A stretch of DNA of 64,000 nucleotides, taken from positions 1 to 64,000 of the forward strand of contig JAJRPM010000005.1 in the NCBI GenBank assembly GCA_024280775.1, written 5' to 3'. The position numbers were made by a program, and so were the translations under genes. This document shows, piece after piece, positions 4,100-14,475 of the stretch. Under the pieces are notes generated by a model, which was not told the origin of the DNA, did no database searches, and worked only from the letters and a program-made list of their open reading frames with translations. Position 1 is the stretch's first letter; every line of letters starts with the position of its first letter. Source of the stretch: Candidatus Zixiibacteriota bacterium. Its GTDB lineage: Bacteria; Zixibacteria; MSB-5A5; GN15; JACZUZ01.

Positions 4100-5527
4100 T
4101 TATTCCCGGGATTTACGGCTTGGTATTATCTCGACGGTTCCATAGGCTCTAAGGTATTCGGCGAAAACCTTGGCGTCACCGCGCACTACTACGATTAGGT
4201 GCGAGGGGGAGAAAATTTTCTCTGATGTTTCTCGCAAGTCCGCTTGAGTTAGCAGGTTTAGTTCAGTTAGAAGGGTGTCATGGCCTTTTTTGACCTTGAT
4301 ATTGGCTTGGATTAGTTCGGCAAATCTTTCGGTTACATCTTTGGCGGTTTCAAAGCCTAGCGCATAGAATCCGCGATAGAAGTTTTTACCTTCTTCGAGC
4401 TCGCGTTTGGATACTCGTGTTTCGCTGAGCAGTTTTAGGGCGGCAACGGTTTCATGGACTGCGTCGACAACTTTGTCGCCGGTGCAGTCCATTTTAATTT
4501 CCATTAGAGTTGGCCCCGGCGCGAAATTCAGATTTGCGCTTAGATTGGAAACCAGATTTACATCACCTACGAGTCTTCTGCCGAGAAAAGACAGCTCGGG
4601 GAATCCAGCCAGCAGGTGTGCGACCATCAACTCTGAACCAAAGGCGCGTGTGTCATTAGCGCTGTCACATAGGGCGAAAAATCCTATCTTGGCTCCTTCG
4701 GCTTCAGGTGTATCAAGCAGGTAAAACTTCAGGGAATCTGTTTCGCTGGTATTTACATGAATCGGCAAATCTTTTTCGATGTGTTTGTTTTTTGGATATG
4801 GCGTGAGAGCTTCGTGAATTTTGTTGATGTACTCCTTAGCGCTTATATCTCCGGCGACAACGATTGAAATTCTATCAGGCGCATAGAAACGTTTGTAGAA
4901 TGCTTCTACGTCATTCAAGGTGATAGAGGCTATTTGCTCTGCTGAACCTAGTGGAGGATTTCCATAGGCGTCGTTGGGAAAGAAATGTCGGTAGGCAAAG
5001 TTTGATAAAGTCCTGTATCCTGCGTCATTGGCTTGATTGACAGCTGAGACGCTTCGTTGTAACTGACGTGTCAGACTTTCTTGTTCGAAACGTTGCTCCA
5101 TCAGCAGGTCGCGAATCAACCGTGTGCCTGATAGAAGTTCTTTGCGCAGTACTGACACAGAAATATCCACAACATCGCGCGTCACTTCAATTCGCATACG
5201 CACACCAATAGAATCAATGAGACGTTGAAACTCAGCGCCGCTTCGCGGGCCGGCTCCCTGACGTAACATTCCGGCAGTGACACTAGCTAATCCGGACTTT
5301 CCCTCGGGGTCATATTTTGAACCAGCGCGGATTAGTATACGGAATTCTATTAGCGGGCGTTCGGGACGCTCGACCAGATTCAATCGGATCAAATTTTGAA
5401 GTACGCGGAACTTGGTGTACGGACGAACTTTCGCAACTGATGTTGAAGAGGTGAAGAGTGCGGAAAATACTACGCCAAGTATCACTACAAGGATTAGGAC
5501 TCTTTGTTTTGCGCTGGTTTTGGTCAT
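4100..5527 (-). CDS. M16-family zinc peptidase homologue, non-catalytic type
   Basis: Secreted or periplasmic protein of the pitrilysin/M16 fold: an N-terminal hydrophobic signal (residues about 9-32) and two M16 halves, with typical phrases such as GSKYDPEGKSGLA and RISIVVAGD. At the place of the zinc motif HxxEH (about residues 81-85) it reads SVTAG, so no zinc ligands remain. That is usual for the partner (alpha-like) subunit of a two-gene M16 pair. It lies 18 bp downstream of the second M16 gene, surely in one operon. About 475 residues is normal. What is odd is that its partner also lacks the motif. Confidence 0.85.
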   Translation of the reverse strand: MTKTSAKQRVLILVVILGVVFSALFTSSTSVAKVRPYTKFRVLQNLIRLNLVERPERPLIEFRILIRAGSKYDPEGKSGLASVTAGMLRQGAGPRSGAEFQRLIDSIGVRMRIEVTRDVVDISVSVLRKELLSGTRLIRDLLMEQRFEQESLTRQLQRSVSAVNQANDAGYRTLSNFAYRHFFPNDAYGNPPLGSAEQIASITLNDVEAFYKRFYAPDRISIVVAGDISAKEYINKIHEALTPYPKNKHIEKDLPIHVNTSETDSLKFYLLDTPEAEGAKIGFFALCDSANDTRAFGSELMVAHLLAGFPELSFLGRRLVGDVNLVSNLSANLNFAPGPTLMEIKMDCTGDKVVDAVHETVAALKLLSETRVSKRELEEGKNFYRGFYALGFETAKDVTERFAELIQANIKVKKGHDTLLTELNLLTQADLRETSEKIFSPSHLIVVVRGDAKVFAEYLRAYGTVEIIPSRKSRE

Positions 5528-5545: not shown

Positions 5546-6925
5546 CTAGTTCTCTGAATTGACGGAGGATGCTTTGGGCTTGAGGAAAATTGACACCCGG
5601 TTCTCGGGATTTAGGTATTTTTTTGCTACCCGACTAATATCGGACAGAGAGATTTTCTCGATGCGGCCTGTTCGTTGTTCCCAATAGGAGCCATCTCCCC
5701 AAACTTGGTATGAGTGCGCTATCTTGGAGCTTCTTCCTAAGGCGCCCGACCATGAGTTGTAGAAAGCGGCTTCCATTTGGTTTTTGGCAATTTTCAAGCT
5801 TGCCTGGGTAAGATTGCCTTTAGCGACTTCTTCTATACTGATATTTAGTAAAGATTCCGTTTCTTCAAATGTTACACCGTCATTGAGGAATCCATATACA
5901 TAGATTAAACTCGGATCTGAAAACTCCGCTACCGCTCCGCCCACGGTGAAACATAGATTTGTATCACTGACTAGTTTTTGATACAAATATGAAGAGCGTC
6001 CGCCAACCAGCATGGTCGCGAGGACTTCCAGCGCCAGTCGGTCTTTGTCTTTGGCTCCGGGTGTATGAAATGACACTATGAACACCGGAACAGTTAAGTC
6101 AGCGCTTACGGTTACTCTTCGCTCGGCTGTTTGCCGGGGCTCTGACGGATAGGTGTGTTCCGGACGAGGACCAGTCGGGATATCTGAAAGAATCTCGATT
6201 AGCTCTTTGAATAGTTTTTTGTATTTGAAGTCGCCGACAATAGAGAGTGTGGCATTTGACGGCTGATAGAAGCGGCGCATGAATATGCGCACATCCTCGG
6301 GTTCGATGGACGCCAAGTCTGCGGGGGAACCGTATTCATCGGCTCTATAGGGATGCTTGGTATAGGATTGGTTTAGCGTTTCATTGGTCAACGCCGAGTA
6401 GATATTGTTTTCACGCGCGATTCTTTGCTCGCGCATCACGCTGTGCTTGGCGGCCTCTACGGTTTCGCGAGAAATCAGCGGGCTTTCCATGCGGTCGGCC
6501 TCGATTAGTAACACTTTCCGCAGGAGTTCTTTGGGGAAACGTGATGAATATGATGAATAGTCCTGCCACACCAGCGAGGATGAACTTCCTCCTGCCGGAT
6601 GCAGTAGTCTTTCTCTTTCACCTTTCCAATAGCCTAGCGAACCATTGTTCATTATCCGCTCACAGACTTTGGCCAATCCGGTTTTTCCGGGCGGGTCGTC
6701 ACGACTACCTACATCATAGAGAACAGTTATGGCTATCAACGGGTCGGACTTATCTTCGAATGCTAATACAGTGATACCGTTGGTGAGTGTTGTGTCACGA
6801 ACGCCCTTTTCTTTGGATCTAGGGCCTGCATATACAGAGGCGCTCTGCAATGTCAGGAGGGTGACAACAAGAAACATTAGTGTCACATGCCTCTTAAGTT
6901 TGGTTAATTGACTGTTGGTATTCAA
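5546..6925 (-). CDS. M16-family zinc peptidase homologue with degenerate HxxEH motif
   Basis: An exported (signal peptide about residues 10-33, ending SVYAG) M16 protein of 459 residues. It shows the usual family surroundings: LYDVGSRDDPPGKTGLA before the motif and PSNATLSIVGDF, GGRSSYLYQKL later. Where active members have HLFEH, this one has KVCER (residues 86-90), so both histidine ligands are replaced while the glutamate is kept. The third-ligand region (VMREQR, near 165) is retained. It is first in a two-gene operon with the other M16 protein. By sequence both look unable to bind zinc, pointing to a chaperone-like or scaffold role; that is inference. Confidence 0.87.
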   Translation of the reverse strand: MNTNSQLTKLKRHVTLMFLVVTLLTLQSASVYAGPRSKEKGVRDTTLTNGITVLAFEDKSDPLIAITVLYDVGSRDDPPGKTGLAKVCERIMNNGSLGYWKGERERLLHPAGGSSSSLVWQDYSSYSSRFPKELLRKVLLIEADRMESPLISRETVEAAKHSVMREQRIARENNIYSALTNETLNQSYTKHPYRADEYGSPADLASIEPEDVRIFMRRFYQPSNATLSIVGDFKYKKLFKELIEILSDIPTGPRPEHTYPSEPRQTAERRVTVSADLTVPVFIVSFHTPGAKDKDRLALEVLATMLVGGRSSYLYQKLVSDTNLCFTVGGAVAEFSDPSLIYVYGFLNDGVTFEETESLLNISIEEVAKGNLTQASLKIAKNQMEAAFYNSWSGALGRSSKIAHSYQVWGDGSYWEQRTGRIEKISLSDISRVAKKYLNPENRVSIFLKPKASSVNSEN

Positions 6926-6951: not shown

Positions 6952-9465
6952 TTATTCAATCGAAAGATCATATGGTAGTCGCATCAGGTATTTTGTATCA
7001 AATCCACTACCGACGCCAGAGCCGCTCTCAGCGGCGGAAAGCAAGTCATTTAGCGCCGCTTCGGTAGTTTCGTCTAGTTTCAAACTCTCGTTACCCAGAC
7101 CGGGAATAAACGAAATCAAACGACGCAAAGCGCGCAGAGGGGCAAACAAGGGATTGCCGCCGAATGAGAATAGGGTTTTTCGCCGGGGGTAGATTTCCAC
7201 TCGATAGTCTTCAATTCCGGCTTCGAGAGCCGTGGCGTTGACTGATTCCCATAGACCGCCAAGTTCATCCACCAAACCTACAGCTTTTGCTTCTCTGCCG
7301 GTCCATACTCTGCCTTCACCTAGTGAGTTTACAGAGTCCGGACTCAATCCTCGCTCTTTGCCGGCTATTTCGGTGAAGCGCTGATATAGCGCTCGCAAAC
7401 CGGAGCGAACTTTCTTGCGCTCCTGCTCACCGAATGGCCGGGCCAATGAATAGAAATCTGAGTTTTTGCCTTTTTTGATATACACCTTGTTCACACCGAT
7501 TTTGTGATATAGTCCGCTTAGATCAGGCTTGAGAGCGAAAATTCCTATTGAGCCTGTGATAGTTGCCGGACTTGCAAAAACCGAATTGGAGGCGGCGGAA
7601 ATATAGTATCCACCTGATGCCGCTACTCCAGACATTGAAACAGTTAACGGGCGCGCATCTTTGGCCAATTGGCTTTGCCGGTAAATCAAATCAGACGCCA
7701 GCGCTGAGCCTCCGGGGGAATTCACTCTGAGTGTGAGACCTTTCACATTCGGGTTTGAAAGCGCCTGCGCGAATCCGCGGCTCATCCCCGCGGGGGTTAT
7801 GTTTGCGCGCAGAGTCGGATCGCCACCTGTGGGACTGGCGCTGATTTCTCCTTCGGCTACAACAACAGCAATGGCTGGCTGGGTTCCCCAAGTGTCGGAG
7901 AATTCTGCTTCATGCAGGTAATCACGCAGTCCGATTACGCTGGGAGTTAGCCCTTTTAGTTTTTTGGAGATTTCGTCGGGGTAGGCTAGAATATCTACTA
8001 GTCCGATATCCAGCGCTTCTGGCGAGGTGTAGGGACCTGCATCAATTATGGTCTCGACTTTTTCTGTGGGGAAATTACGCGCTGTGGCTATGCCATCGAC
8101 TAGCTGGTCATATAGATCTCCTAACCAGCGGTTGGTCATCTCGCGGTTTTCGGGCGATGGTTCGGACTCCATCCATTGTTCGGTGGCGGTTTTGTAAGCC
8201 CCGATTTTTTCGGCTTCCATAGTGACACCGATTTTATCTAATGCTTTGGCGTAGAACGAAAGTTCGACACGCAGACCGGTTAAGGACACGTAGCTTGCCG
8301 GCGGGATTATTATTTTATCAGCTGAGCAGGCTAAGTAGTAGTTACGATTTGAGGCCGAACTGAGATAGATATACACTTTTTTGCCGGATGATTTGATAAC
8401 CTCGATTGCGGCTTTGATTTCCTGCGTTTGCGCCCAGCTTAGATTGTTGGGGCCGACTGTGAGTAGTACATCGGCAATTGATTCGTCGGCGGCGGCGCGA
8501 TAGAGAGAGGAAATGTAGTCGAAGAAAGCGAGCTTTTTTCTGCCGAATACTGTTTGCAGGGGGTTTTCCTGGATTGCGCCAGCTACTCCCACCCGGAGTG
8601 AGCGTTTCTTGCTGGTTACCGAGAGTTGTTTGTCTGCTACAGTTCCGAAGTAACCGGTAGCGCTACGGAAATTGTTATCGCTGGAGTGACGGCTCTGGCC
8701 TCCGACGAATGAGCGCTCAAAATTCACTCTTACACCCAGCTCAACAGACTTGTTCTCGTCCCAGGAGCCGTAGAGAATTATTCCGCGAGTAGGAGAGCCG
8801 CTGGCGCCTAGACGGAAAACTGCATCGCCGATATTCTGTTTGTGTGAAAGGGACATTTCGCCATTCAGGGTCAGACGGCTGTCCTTGAATGGGCGATAGG
8901 CCAGACCATAAACTTGTTCAACTGCTGATTCGATGTTTGCGATTTTGCCTTTGTTCAGATTCGACCAAGTGGCTCCCAGGGACCATGAGGGGCTTGAGCG
9001 GTAGAGGACTCCCAGATTCCAGGTGTGACGTTTGTTTAACAAAGTGGGGCCTTCTTTGACATTGCGATACGAAAGTCCGAAAGAGAAGCCACCATTTCCA
9101 CCATGCCCTATCGCAAAAATATGTTCTTTGTAGTCTTGTGCGCCGGAGATGTTGTTTAGTTTGCGATAGGAGTATCCAAAGCCACCAGTCGAGGTGGCGA
9201 AGCCCCAGTCTTTGGCTAATGATGGCTCGCGATAGTCGGCCATCAGTAGCGCGGTGGGAGTTTTGTAAACACCAAGACCTGCGGGGTTTGTCCAAATGGC
9301 TTCTGCGCCGGAGACCGAAGCGGCAAAGCGTTGGAAATGCACTCCTTCGGGGAAGAATATCCTGGGAGTTGCTAACGACAGTGACGGCGCGGAGGCTGTT
9401 ACAAGACAAGTCAAAGCCAGCGCTATGTTTCTAGTTATTTTGGTTGTTCTACTAATCTTATTCAT
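6952..9465 (-). CDS. sppA: Signal peptide peptidase SppA fused to an N-terminal outer-membrane-barrel-like domain
   Basis: From the ATG at 9465 the protein has 837 residues. A signal peptide (about 10-33) is followed by roughly 250 residues of alternating aromatic beta strands that open with NPAGLGVYKTP, the start typical of PorV/UPF0164-type outer-membrane proteins. A tandem SppA (S49) module then runs from about residue 305 to the end. Both catalytic residues of long-form SppA are visible: Lys425 in IGAYKTATEQW and Ser617 in VAASGGYYISAAS. SppA normally sits on the inner membrane and cleaves leftover signal peptides; an exported barrel fusion implies a different site of action. An upstream start (9606) would add 47 residues without signal-like character, so it was rejected. 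Confidence 0.85.
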   Translation of the reverse strand: MNKISRTTKITRNIALALTCLVTASAPSLSLATPRIFFPEGVHFQRFAASVSGAEAIWTNPAGLGVYKTPTALLMADYREPSLAKDWGFATSTGGFGYSYRKLNNISGAQDYKEHIFAIGHGGNGGFSFGLSYRNVKEGPTLLNKRHTWNLGVLYRSSPSWSLGATWSNLNKGKIANIESAVEQVYGLAYRPFKDSRLTLNGEMSLSHKQNIGDAVFRLGASGSPTRGIILYGSWDENKSVELGVRVNFERSFVGGQSRHSSDNNFRSATGYFGTVADKQLSVTSKKRSLRVGVAGAIQENPLQTVFGRKKLAFFDYISSLYRAAADESIADVLLTVGPNNLSWAQTQEIKAAIEVIKSSGKKVYIYLSSASNRNYYLACSADKIIIPPASYVSLTGLRVELSFYAKALDKIGVTMEAEKIGAYKTATEQWMESEPSPENREMTNRWLGDLYDQLVDGIATARNFPTEKVETIIDAGPYTSPEALDIGLVDILAYPDEISKKLKGLTPSVIGLRDYLHEAEFSDTWGTQPAIAVVVAEGEISASPTGGDPTLRANITPAGMSRGFAQALSNPNVKGLTLRVNSPGGSALASDLIYRQSQLAKDARPLTVSMSGVAASGGYYISAASNSVFASPATITGSIGIFALKPDLSGLYHKIGVNKVYIKKGKNSDFYSLARPFGEQERKKVRSGLRALYQRFTEIAGKERGLSPDSVNSLGEGRVWTGREAKAVGLVDELGGLWESVNATALEAGIEDYRVEIYPRRKTLFSFGGNPLFAPLRALRRLISFIPGLGNESLKLDETTEAALNDLLSAAESGSGVGSGFDTKYLMRLPYDLSIE

Positions 9466-9530: not shown

Positions 9531-10655
9531 CTATTTCTTCCCGCTTATCAGAATTGAGCCACCGTATTTGGCCCGCACTGCGACCAAGGCTTGGCCGTCC
9601 CCGCATTCTGCTTCGATTTTGTTCTCGCCCACATCAACAATTCTGTGAGGCAGGTTTTCGATGTCGATTGATTTGCCATCCTTTGTGCGTAGCGAAAATA
9701 TCGCCGATATATCGCGGGGGAACTTTAGATTGATATCCTCATAGGAATTTCGAATATCTACTCGAGTGTCTGGTTGAATACCAGTGAAGACTACATTTAT
9801 CAAACCACCGCTGTTCTCTATCCAGTTGCGGTCACCGGTTAGCTGGATATCCTCACATCTAATCTCTGCGCGCGCGGTTCTTGCTCGTAGTGGACCACGA
9901 TAACGTCGTATATCAACACGTCCGTCTTCTGTTCGCGCCCGGTTGACAGACACCTCAGTTACTTGAATGTCAGTCAATGTTATCTTGGCGTTGCTGGTTC
10001 GGACATCGAAGCCGCCAACTAGATCGATTATGCGAATGGTACTGTTATGAGACTCTACTCTGATTATCCCACGAGCGCCGCGGACATCAACTGGCTCATA
10101 GGTTTCGTTTATCAACAGATCAGCGATGGCCCCGCGGGAACTAAGCTCCAGATAGGGCGCATTGAGTTCTACTGAGGTTTCTCGCGGAACAGTTACAATC
10201 ATATCCAGACTCGGATTCTCTCCCTCGTACAGAGTCCAGACGGAGGGATCGATGCGAATCTTTAGATGGAGTCCGTCTTCGGTTTCAATCAACCGCGCTC
10301 CGCTAGTGGACATCATTTCGCCGGCTTGTTCGATATCATCGGCGCGAAAAGCGCTAGTGACATCGACTTGTACCGAGTCTACATCACTGGCTATTATGTC
10401 AATTGCTCCTGAGATAGGTAGCTTGCCTACAACAGAGACTTCAAGAACTTTCTGTGAGCTCATTTGTGAACTGACAGTTGGTAATTTGATTTGGTAGAAT
10501 CCACCACCTATTGAGCGGGGTTGGTTTTGAGCGGTGACCGAGCTGACAGATAGCAACATGTAGCTCACAGTGAGAGCCGCTACGTAAGGCCGAAAACCAG
10601 AGCTGAGTTTGTTTGCGCCTTGCTGTTTCATTGCTTTTGTCACTTGAGGATTCAT
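9531..10655 (-). CDS. Exported DUF4097-like beta-helix protein
   Basis: A 374-residue protein with an N-terminal hydrophobic segment ending SSVTAQ (about residues 24-43), so exported. The rest is repetitive beta structure with many short strands and phrases such as NSTIRIIDLVGGFDVRTSNAKI, typical of the DUF4097/adhesin-like beta-helix proteins of unknown function. It sits directly upstream of the barrel-SppA gene on the same strand with a 65 bp gap, so they may be co-transcribed. ATG 10655 is used; an inner ATG at 10631 is equally possible. Confidence 0.6.
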   Translation of the reverse strand: MNPQVTKAMKQQGANKLSSGFRPYVAALTVSYMLLSVSSVTAQNQPRSIGGGFYQIKLPTVSSQMSSQKVLEVSVVGKLPISGAIDIIASDVDSVQVDVTSAFRADDIEQAGEMMSTSGARLIETEDGLHLKIRIDPSVWTLYEGENPSLDMIVTVPRETSVELNAPYLELSSRGAIADLLINETYEPVDVRGARGIIRVESHNSTIRIIDLVGGFDVRTSNAKITLTDIQVTEVSVNRARTEDGRVDIRRYRGPLRARTARAEIRCEDIQLTGDRNWIENSGGLINVVFTGIQPDTRVDIRNSYEDINLKFPRDISAIFSLRTKDGKSIDIENLPHRIVDVGENKIEAECGDGQALVAVRAKYGGSILISGKK

Positions 10656-10801: not shown

Positions 10802-11650
10802 TTAACTTGCAGTGTCATGCAAGTACAATCGATGCATCACTATTGATCCGGCAATACCGGCATTGAGAGATTCTAGCAATGGACTGTGCTTTATGCTTAT
10901 TTTTCTATGGGCAAGTTCACGTAACTCGGCGCTGGCTCCATTGCTTTCGGCTCCCACTGCCACTGCAATCGCGCTGTTTTTGGAGCTCGCATTGGTTTCG
11001 TTGAACCAGTTTTCTTCGGGTTCACCCTCTACGTCGGTTACCAGCAGACGTAAACCGTTCTCTTCCTTTAACGAGCGCAATTGGTCGAGGTTGCAATTCA
11101 TAATCCAACAACCGAATACAGCTCCGGCTGTGGAACGCACTACTTTTGAATTGAATGGTTCAACACATTCGCCAACTAATAATATAAGATCAAATCGAAA
11201 TCCCAGCGCTGATCGTAGTAGCGCTCCTAGATTCCCGGGATCGTTGATGTCTTCCACCAAGAGGATTCTCTTGGCGCTGCTGGCTCTTTTGAGATCGAAT
11301 TCAAGGCTGGGAAGATCAAAGACTCCCACCAGTCCCTGGGGGCTTTTGGTATCCACTATACGATGGAAATCTCTTGAGGCTATTGTCTCGGTTGGAACAT
11401 TCTTTGAGCGGAAAGACTCCACTAAGGATTGCGCGCGCTCGTTGATATCCGGCGGATAGAGAAAAATCCTGCGGGGCAAGCGGTGATGCTTGAGAGCTTC
11501 TTCGAGCAAACGCACACCTTCGGCAAGGAACAATTCTTCCTGTCGGCGGCCTTTTTTGGTTTTCAGCGAAACCAATCGATTGATATCCGCCTTGGTGAGA
11601 CGAGCGGTGGAGCTGGTTTCGGTTGGTAAGTAGCGTGATTTCTTGTGCAT
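10802..11650 (-). CDS. TrmH/SpoU-family RNA 2'-O-ribose methyltransferase
   Basis: S-adenosylmethionine-dependent methylase of the SPOUT class that modifies ribose 2'-OH in rRNA or tRNA. The N-terminal part (to about residue 115) is an RNA-binding substrate domain (EELFLAEGVRLLEEAL). The SPOUT knot follows, with motif 1 NDPGNLGALLRSA, motif 2 VGAESNGAS and motif 3 SLNAGIAGSIVMHRLY. The arrangement matches the RlmB/TsnR-type 23S rRNA enzymes; the exact target nucleotide cannot be read from sequence. It is divergent from the patatin-barrel gene, with about 110 bp between. Confidence 0.88.
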   Translation of the reverse strand: MHKKSRYLPTETSSTARLTKADINRLVSLKTKKGRRQEELFLAEGVRLLEEALKHHRLPRRIFLYPPDINERAQSLVESFRSKNVPTETIASRDFHRIVDTKSPQGLVGVFDLPSLEFDLKRASSAKRILLVEDINDPGNLGALLRSALGFRFDLILLVGECVEPFNSKVVRSTAGAVFGCWIMNCNLDQLRSLKEENGLRLLVTDVEGEPEENWFNETNASSKNSAIAVAVGAESNGASAELRELAHRKISIKHSPLLESLNAGIAGSIVMHRLYLHDTAS

Positions 11651-11763
11651 TGTCTTTACTTATTGAAGGAAAAAATCTTATTGATAGTTTCAAGGCTGTC
11701 AATTGTATTTGTTTGTATTATCCTCGTATCTTGCAGTTGTTCTTATGAGAACCGGGACCATTG

Positions 11764-14475
11764 ATGAAACCTAACTCCACGACATCTCTTTCCAAGCAAC
11801 CGATTCGATACTACCTGAAAACTCTTCTTATTTGCTGTCTATTGACTGCCGGTTTCCCCGGCTTCTCTCAGGCGCAGGATACGACAAATACCAGCGCTCT
11901 GCAACGAAGCTCAGAGGCGCCGGTATACGCTCGTCGCTGGGGGAAATTGACCACCCGCGAACGTGAATCTACCGGCAAACCGCAAGTGGCTTTGGCGTTA
12001 TCCGGTGGCGGGGCCAGGGGATTGGCTCATATTGGAGTTATTCGGGCTTTTGAGGAGGCGGGTATTGAGATTGTCGCAATTGCCGGAACTTCAATGGGCG
12101 GCATTGTCGGGGGGTTATATTCTGCAGGTATCAGCACAGATGAAATTGAGGATTTGGCTCGCAAGGTAGACTTTCGGGCGTTGTTTTCCAATTCTCCGCG
12201 GCGGCAATCGCTTTTTCTAACTCAGCGCGAAAATATGGACAGGGCTTTGCTATCGATTAGGTTCGATCGAGGCAAACCAACTTTTCCCACTGGTTTCAGC
12301 TCGGCGCAACAATTGACCGAGTTGCTCTCTTTGTTGACACTCCGGCAAAACTATGCCGCAGGAGCGGATTTCACTAAGCTCTCTATTCCGTTTACTACTG
12401 TTGCAACTGATATTTCTACCGGTGAGGCTGTGGTGCTTGATAATGGTAATCTTGCCGATGCGATTCGCGCTACTATGGCGTTTCCATTGGCTATTTCACC
12501 GGTTGAAATTGATGGGCGCTTATTGATGGACGGCGGGATGGTGGAGCCGGTTCCGGTGGAGATCGCTAAGGGCCTGGTTGGTGATGCTGTTGGTATCAAG
12601 ATTGTGGCGGTTAACACGACCAAGCGACTGTTACCGAAAGGCGGTATCAAGGACCCGTTTGATATGGCGACGCAAGTGACTACTATTATGTCACTACGTG
12701 AATTGCGCGAGGAGTTGGCTCTAGCGGACTATGTAATCACTCCTAAGGTCGGCTCTGGTAATGGCGCTGACTTTGGTAACTTCAAGGATTTTGTAGACGC
12801 TGGTTATGTTGAAGCGCAAGCGACAATTGATAAGATTCGTCGTGAACACGAAGCTCAGCTTTCTACGAATGCTATTACGTTGAGTAATTTTTTGGTGACG
12901 GGAGTTACCGGCCTTGATGATGTGTTAGACTCTTTGCGTGAGACATCGGTGACATTGAAGCGCCTTGACGAGATTTTTCAGCGGCGCTGGGATGCTGGAG
13001 ATTTGGTGTGGTTGGATATTGTTAGTTCTCCACTTGAAGAAGGCGATTCACTGCAAGTGTCATATGCGCAACTGAAGATAAGCGGAGCTCTTCAGCCAGC
13101 TCTTGATGAAATTGAGGTGGAGGTTGAAAACAACTTTGGCAAACGTCAAGGCGCTGTAGAGGAAATGCTGTACCAGAACATCATGAGTCTGAAGTTCATA
13201 CAACTCGATTCTATTGCCGAGTGGGCGTCACAACTCTATCGCAATAGCGGAGCGGATCTCAGCGCTGTTCGAGTTTGTATCTATGCTCCTGAGACGAAAA
13301 CTGTGTATTTGCGGATTGATGAGGCTCGCAGTCACGAGTTGAGTATTAAGGGAGTTTCACATACCAGGCCGAGTTTTATTCGTGATAGGATTAGCAGTTT
13401 CTCTAGCGGCATTCCTTTTACGCTGGAAACTGCCAGACGCGCATATCGTGATATTTACGGTTCGGGACTTTTTGAACGTGTTTCAATTGATGTGATTCCA
13501 ACTGAAGACGGCGCGGATGTAGAAGTGCTGGTGCATGAGAAAAACACATTGCAAATGCAGTTTGGCTATCATTGGGATGATGAATATCACAGTGAAGGAT
13601 TTGTAAAAGGGCTTGAGAGCAACATCTTTGGTATAGGCTTAGAGGGGAGTCTATTGGCGCGATTTGCTGATAGACGTCAGAGGTTTAGCGCTGGATTACG
13701 CACTGATAGGATTTTTCGCACTCATGTGGCATTCAACTTGGAAGCGTTTTCAACTAAGCTGGACAGGCGATTGCTGGCGCCTAATGGAGACAAGCTTGGC
13801 TTTCGTCGTGAGTCACGACGCGGCGTTTCATTGAGAATTGGACAACAGATTTCGCGTTTTGGGATTCTTTCTGCGGCGGCGATTGTGGAGCATGTGGAAT
13901 CCACTGAACCGGGCGCAATGTTTCCGTTGAATTACAATTTGCGCAAAATACAAATTCGGTCTTTGGTTGAGGATTTTGACAGAACAAATTTTACGCAACG
14001 CGGCAGAAAGCATTTGTTGTCACTGGAGTCCGCTGGAAAGATTTTTGGCGGGGAGACTGAATACACCAAGTGGTTCAGCTCTATTGAATCATATTTCCCG
14101 CTTACTAAAAGGCTTAATTTTAATCCAAAGTTTACCGCGGCGGTGTCACGCGCAAATCTTCCGGCGCCGGAGCAGTTCTATCTCGGCGGGCTGGGTTCAT
14201 TTGAGGGGTTTCGAACGACTGAGCTTTCAGGCTCTAAGGTTTTGTTGATGAATTTGGAGCTTCGTTACAGGCTTCTGCCAAGAATATATTTGATTACTCG
14301 CTATAACAGCGGCAATACTTACGGACAGACTGAAGATTTGAATTTCGATAATTTGCGCTACGGCTGGGCGGCGGCGTTGGGGCTTGATACACCGTTCGGG
14401 CCAATAATTCTCGGCTATGGACGCGCTAGTGAGAGTCGTGATAGAGTGTATTTTAACGCGGGGTTGCAGTTCTAG
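11764..14475 (+). CDS. Patatin-like phospholipase with C-terminal outer-membrane barrel (type Vd autotransporter-like)
   Basis: An exported protein of about 900 residues. The signal peptide ends GFSQAQ near residue 40. The patatin domain (about 75-350) shows the oxyanion loop GGGARGLAHIGVI, the nucleophile GTSMGG and the dyad aspartate in LLMDGGMVEPVP, so it should be an active serine lipase or phospholipase. A helical stretch and a POTRA-like domain (about 500-600) follow, then a 16-strand Omp85/bacterial surface antigen barrel ending in a terminal aromatic strand (RVYFNAGLQF). This is the PlpD-like architecture. ATG 11764 directly follows an in-frame TTG. It is convergent with the next gene, only 25 bp apart. 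Confidence 0.9.
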   Translation: MKPNSTTSLSKQPIRYYLKTLLICCLLTAGFPGFSQAQDTTNTSALQRSSEAPVYARRWGKLTTRERESTGKPQVALALSGGGARGLAHIGVIRAFEEAGIEIVAIAGTSMGGIVGGLYSAGISTDEIEDLARKVDFRALFSNSPRRQSLFLTQRENMDRALLSIRFDRGKPTFPTGFSSAQQLTELLSLLTLRQNYAAGADFTKLSIPFTTVATDISTGEAVVLDNGNLADAIRATMAFPLAISPVEIDGRLLMDGGMVEPVPVEIAKGLVGDAVGIKIVAVNTTKRLLPKGGIKDPFDMATQVTTIMSLRELREELALADYVITPKVGSGNGADFGNFKDFVDAGYVEAQATIDKIRREHEAQLSTNAITLSNFLVTGVTGLDDVLDSLRETSVTLKRLDEIFQRRWDAGDLVWLDIVSSPLEEGDSLQVSYAQLKISGALQPALDEIEVEVENNFGKRQGAVEEMLYQNIMSLKFIQLDSIAEWASQLYRNSGADLSAVRVCIYAPETKTVYLRIDEARSHELSIKGVSHTRPSFIRDRISSFSSGIPFTLETARRAYRDIYGSGLFERVSIDVIPTEDGADVEVLVHEKNTLQMQFGYHWDDEYHSEGFVKGLESNIFGIGLEGSLLARFADRRQRFSAGLRTDRIFRTHVAFNLEAFSTKLDRRLLAPNGDKLGFRRESRRGVSLRIGQQISRFGILSAAAIVEHVESTEPGAMFPLNYNLRKIQIRSLVEDFDRTNFTQRGRKHLLSLESAGKIFGGETEYTKWFSSIESYFPLTKRLNFNPKFTAAVSRANLPAPEQFYLGGLGSFEGFRTTELSGSKVLLMNLELRYRLLPRIYLITRYNSGNTYGQTEDLNFDNLRYGWAAALGLDTPFGPIILGYGRASESRDRVYFNAGLQF

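Follow-up and report, generated by a model that had tools for sequence, protein, structure and literature searches.

The locus and its conserved surroundings

The window, a stretch of 64,000 nucleotides from a Zixibacteria genome analysed here as a whole, carries an uninterrupted frame that joins a signal peptide and a predicted outer-membrane barrel to a tandem S49 protease of the SppA type (Table 1). The gene belongs to a cassette whose order is conserved across the phylum, a divergent patatin-Omp85 gene being followed by SpoU, DUF4097, the barrel or barrel-SppA gene, M16a and M16b. In the window 65 nt separate the end of the DUF4097 gene from the ATG of the fusion, M16a begins 26 nt past the fusion stop and M16b a further 18 nt past M16a; a scan for promoters and terminators gave signal near chance level. 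The most constant neighbour of the barrel gene, fused or not, is the upstream DUF4097 gene. The large family f4 and some others have no M16 pair downstream, and the f16 locus is without SpoU and patatin-Omp85. Since neither M16 protein of the window has the HxxEH zinc motif (KVCER and SVTAG stand in its place), both are probably non-catalytic to judge from their sequences, M16a being a pseudo-peptidase here; M16a has an intact motif in f2 and in most of the deeper families. The patatin-Omp85 neighbour, kept across most of the phylum, itself joins a phospholipase-type domain to an outer-membrane barrel.

Table 1. Features at the fusion locus (positions in the window) and, in the last row, at the split locus of two related genomes (positions in loci L180 and L181)
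Feature	Position	Strand	Basis
Barrel-SppA fusion gene	6952..9465	(-)	837 aa, uninterrupted frame; TIGR00705 above cut-off; fused homologues
Signal peptide, residues 1 to ~32	9370..9465	(-)	read from sequence and alignment
Predicted 14-stranded PorV-like outer-membrane barrel, residues 71-276	8638..9255	(-)	AF2, Foldseek, alternation test
First S49 unit, with Lys425	7954..8394	(-)	PF01343 (Peptidase_S49)
Lys425 codon (= E. coli Lys209), invariant	8191..8193	(-)	alignment
Second S49 unit, with Ser617	7216..7662	(-)	PF01343 (Peptidase_S49)
Ser617 codon (= E. coli Ser409), invariant	7615..7617	(-)	alignment
DUF4097-like envelope protein, directly upstream of fusion	9531..10655	(-)	sub-cut-off Pfam match, synteny
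M16a, M16-family protein downstream of fusion	5546..6925	(-)	HxxEH replaced by KVCER; synteny
M16b, M16-family protein	4100..5527	(-)	synteny; without HxxEH in any member seen
SpoU-family rRNA methyltransferase, conserved neighbour	10802..11650	(-)	synteny
Patatin-Omp85 protein, divergent conserved neighbour	11761..14475	(+)	synteny
f18 split junction	L180 ~5902-5960; L181 ~5892-5955	(-)	T9 run, genomes G124, G125

The protease module

The complete tandem S49 unit with Lys425 and Ser617 that the earlier note had read from the sequence is borne out by the model TIGR00705 (SppA_67K), which matches residues 308-767 at 318.9 bits against a cut-off of 311.45 and spans both S49 units, by the two PF01343 units themselves, and by alignment with E. 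coli SppA (3bez). In that alignment residue 425 (K, in the context KIGAYKTATE) and residue 617 (S, in SGVAASGGYY) fall on the Lys and Ser of the E. coli enzyme, which are its Lys209/Ser409 dyad, with a numbering offset of +25. The dyad is invariant wherever both residues are present, namely in 90 type-1 fusions, in 12 fusions of a distant second type described below and in two frame-split copies. Because no complete copy has lost it, the protein is likely to be an active protease, as far as sequence can tell.

With the 67K type of SppA, or protease IV, of E. coli (3bez, 3bf0) the protein has the tandem S49 arrangement, the dyad and the fold in common (Foldseek E 8e-43, 30% identity). The N-terminal inner-membrane TM helix of that enzyme, however, gives way here to a signal peptide and a barrel of ~250 residues, and with this anchor missing the fusion protein is a variant of the 67K type rather than a canonical member. 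The short single-domain SppA known from B. subtilis (3rst, 4kwb) likewise has the S49 catalytic unit, but differs in having only one such unit, in being TM-anchored and in being without a barrel; a copy of this short form, with an N-terminal TM helix, is encoded separately in the window's genome.

A predicted outer-membrane barrel ahead of the protease

The signal peptide has a basic start and a hydrophobic core and is probably cut near LSLA-TP; neither the sequence nor the alignment has a conserved lipobox Cys in this region. A conserved W-x-NPAGL (residues 58-64) precedes the predicted barrel strands. Residues ~34-285 reach no Pfam family above its cut-off, the best being a sub-threshold match to Porin_4 (19.8 bits against 27), and the N-domain found no match in a sequence search of the PDB. 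At the level of structure, AF2 predicts 14 strands in the whole protein (pLDDT 83.6, pTM 0.81, from a shallow alignment of 35 rows) and again in the N-domain alone (pLDDT 83.4, pTM 0.80, from a shallow alignment of 11 rows). The strands run from residue 71 to 276 and are short, at 8-11 residues, with a pLDDT of about 90 for the barrel.

When the predicted N-domain was compared with known structures by Foldseek, the best 50 matches were all outer-membrane barrels except for one mitochondrial porin and one designed variant. By query-normalised TM score PorV was clearly the best (0.68 for 6h3i_F and 0.67 for 8gl6_F, the others lying at about 0.35-0.57), while the lowest E-value belonged to OmpG; with the full-length model as query, PorV was the first match outside S49. 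FadL and OmpG, both 14-stranded outer-membrane barrels among the top fold matches, score lower than PorV (0.41-0.55) and have no protease domain. PorV and the N-domain also have an NPAGL-like start in common. The N-domain is nonetheless only 8-9% identical to PorV, about 100 residues smaller and fused to a protease; PorV-family models (NF033709/T9SS PorV) are absent from the NCBIfam matches to the fusion protein at E<=1, and the fusion locus is absent among the PorV_fam matches listed for the window's genome. The N-domain is PorV-like at the level of the fold, but lies outside the PorV family by sequence.

The hydrophobicity of the barrel strands alternates from residue to residue, with a mean difference of 2.10 against 1.27 in shuffled strands (p 0.0004), and the strands of the S49 module, put to the same test, show no alternation (p 0.37). 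A signal peptide, a closed even-stranded barrel and alternating hydrophobicity are the marks of an outer-membrane barrel, and their presence here, at the level of prediction, points to an outer-membrane location. The PorV-like barrel proposed in the earlier note from the letters alone has in this way held up in its fold, AF2 predicting 14 strands, Foldseek returning closed outer-membrane barrels as matches and neither pointing to a soluble beta domain. A related alternative is that the N-domain forms a periplasmic beta structure or an oligomerisation anchor instead of a membrane barrel. The failure to reach any curated barrel family above cut-off and the shallow AF2 alignments, both of which also count against an outer-membrane reading as such, would suit this alternative, as would the shortness of the strands; it is nevertheless judged very improbable, given that the leading fold matches are outer-membrane barrels, that the hydrophobicity alternates and that the start is of the NPAGL type seen in PorV/FadL proteins.

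Distribution across Zixibacteria and other phyla

A profile of the N-domain matches 123 of 133 Zixibacteria genomes, most of them assembled from metagenomes, and the matches are mostly fusions of ~800 aa. Two of the 123 have the distant type 2 only and the remaining 121 have type 1, in 92 of which the frame reaches 500 aa or more; the other 29 type-1 genomes have a barrel standing alone, a broken frame or a contig edge. A relative from the same genus has the identical architecture at 72% identity, and conservation of the architecture within the genus and across the phylum is far above chance. Outside the phylum, named genomes were searched with the full-length alignment as query, since the N-domain profile offered no sufficiently conserved stretch. 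Judged by match extents, about half of the 59 genomes sampled from the Caldithrix phylum (Calditrichota) have a full-length relative, as do many of the 78 sampled from a Myxococcota phylum. They were also found in WOR-3 and one further bacterium, whereas most SppA matches in Bacteroidota and others are 560-630 aa long and without the N-domain.

The wider search for the architecture that the earlier note had proposed so finds it in Zixibacteria, Calditrichota, WOR-3 and Myxococcota, and a fusion confined to this one assembly is not what the genomes contain. A chance gene fusion or frame artefact, to which the split and standalone versions at the same locus might seem to lend colour, was rejected and is given next to no credence, the homologues being fused in most families of the phylum, in many assemblies and on branches that lie deep in the tree. 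The spread across phyla, the conserved cassette and the standalone barrels go beyond what the first reading of the sequence had held.

Barrels without a protease

In a tree of the barrel (127 rows) the fused form is the widespread state and the standalone form needs four changes, all on well-supported branches; the lineages with standalone barrels number at least four (family f3, G002, G079 with G080, and G112 with G114). The simplest reading of these sequences is that the fusion came first and that the SppA module was then lost repeatedly. Four lineages retain the barrel on its own, without SppA, so it has a role beyond that of an anchor. Three of the four lineages that lost the module hold, elsewhere in the genome, a second and distant barrel-SppA (type 2) that groups with a Caldithrix protein, and none was found in any genome with the native fusion, which suggests horizontal replacement. 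Where the native protease is gone, a barrel-borne protease tends to be present; the direction is consistent, but with four independent events the association is not significant (sign test p 0.25). The type-2 loci (L052-L058, L187, L282-L285) are confined to genomes without the native SppA module.

In both genomes of family f18 (G124 and G125, from different genera) barrel and SppA are split between two frames, which meet at nine consecutive T. No start codon precedes the conserved S49 part in the SppA frame, the dyad is intact, and one added U or a -1 shift would rejoin the frames. The split may be a programmed slippage that yields barrel-only and barrel-SppA products, or a shared decay of the homopolymer. 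Poly-A runs as a general slippage signal at the barrel-SppA junction were considered separately and rejected, a Lys-rich linker being the explanation: the 88 fused genes have 16 long A/T runs, of which 8 lie at the junction, and shuffling of synonymous codons gives a mean of 5.45, with at least 8 in 27 of 200 shuffles.

A probable outer-membrane form of SppA

SppA is known as an enzyme of the inner membrane or the thylakoid. For the fusion protein, the reading preferred here, and held to be probable, is an outer-membrane-anchored SppA that faces the periplasm, removes peptides or proteins at that membrane and is additional to the inner-membrane enzyme. That grade belongs to the whole statement, confidence being higher for the architecture and lower for the substrate. 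The signal peptide would export the protein, and the N-domain would form a 14-stranded PorV-like barrel in the outer membrane. In an even-stranded barrel both termini lie on the periplasmic side, and the tandem S49 protease should therefore be suspended from the inner face of the membrane, with the Ser/Lys dyad assembled, probably in an oligomer, as in E. coli SppA. There it would cut extended peptides or unfolded or misfolded proteins, as a guess at the substrate, working together with the inner-membrane SppA and not in its place, beside the DUF4097 and M16 partners. The outgroup fusion genomes that were tested also hold a non-barrel SppA, as the window's genome does. The substrates suggested in the earlier note (leftover or lipoprotein signal peptides, surface proteins, the protein itself) would be candidates at most, and leftover signal peptides are the least likely of them, since their release takes place in the inner membrane, which has another SppA. 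Against the outer-membrane reading stand the state of the M16 partners, degenerate in the window and absent downstream in f4, and the standalone barrels with their apparent role beyond anchoring.

The same fold matches could be taken to mean that the barrel admits external peptides and that SppA and M16 digest them for nutrition. The matches to OmpG, FadL and general porins would fit such uptake, as would the HxxEH kept by M16a in many families, but several families, that of the window among them, have lost M16 or have a degenerate form of it, barrels of the PorV and FadL type are either plugged or do not serve as general pores, and SppA prefers signal-peptide-like substrates; uptake is regarded as distinctly unlikely.

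The most interesting rival, although still an unlikely one, is attachment to type 9 secretion (T9SS), in which the PorV-like barrel would dock on SprA and SppA would trim or clear periplasmic parts of cargo or jammed substrates. Beyond the rank of PorV as best structural match, it can point to SprA in 130 of 133 Zixibacteria genomes, to 47 matches to the T9SS C-terminal signal and 13 to the PorV family in the window's genome, and to a sprA gene that closely precedes the cassette in family f16 and in genome G113 (f15). The loci with upstream sprA are L195, L199, L102 and G113:C350, and in f16 an aminopeptidase-like gene lies between sprA and the cassette. In the window's genome, however, sprA is on another contig, and in most families it is unlinked; the N-domain fails the PorV-family models, many other PorV paralogues are present, and Myxococcota, in which T9SS is not known, also carry the fusion. 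In Flavobacterium columnare, deletion of sppA abolishes gliding and increases outer-membrane vesicles, which its authors read as an effect on Sec clearance; the lost trait is itself linked to T9SS, so the mutant gives an indirect hint in favour of the rival (PMC13236525). A more specific version, rated lower still, makes the barrel a dedicated docking subunit of an SprA-type apparatus, with barrel-SppA as a translocon-attached protease for T9SS substrates and the barrel-only form, which several lineages keep and which slippage at the f18 T9 run possibly yields as well, as a non-proteolytic version of the same part.

If the preferred outer-membrane reading is right, a ClpP-fold, ATP-independent protease acts at the outer membrane in a widespread form, which would explain the two or more SppA genes per genome and open a phylum-wide envelope cassette to testing. 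A description of a barrel-SppA fusion was not found among the open-access papers searched, which leave out most subscription journals and all bioRxiv preprints. Since the family models cover no more than the C-terminal two thirds of the protein, database entries probably read plain 'SppA'. The evidence as a whole suggests that this well-known protease family has an outer-membrane branch that has drawn little notice. As to the remainder of the window's genome, contigs C4, C10, C17 and others carry T9SS-like equipment including SprA, and some of the PorV-family domains belong to frames 600-970 aa long, which suggests that further barrel fusions exist.
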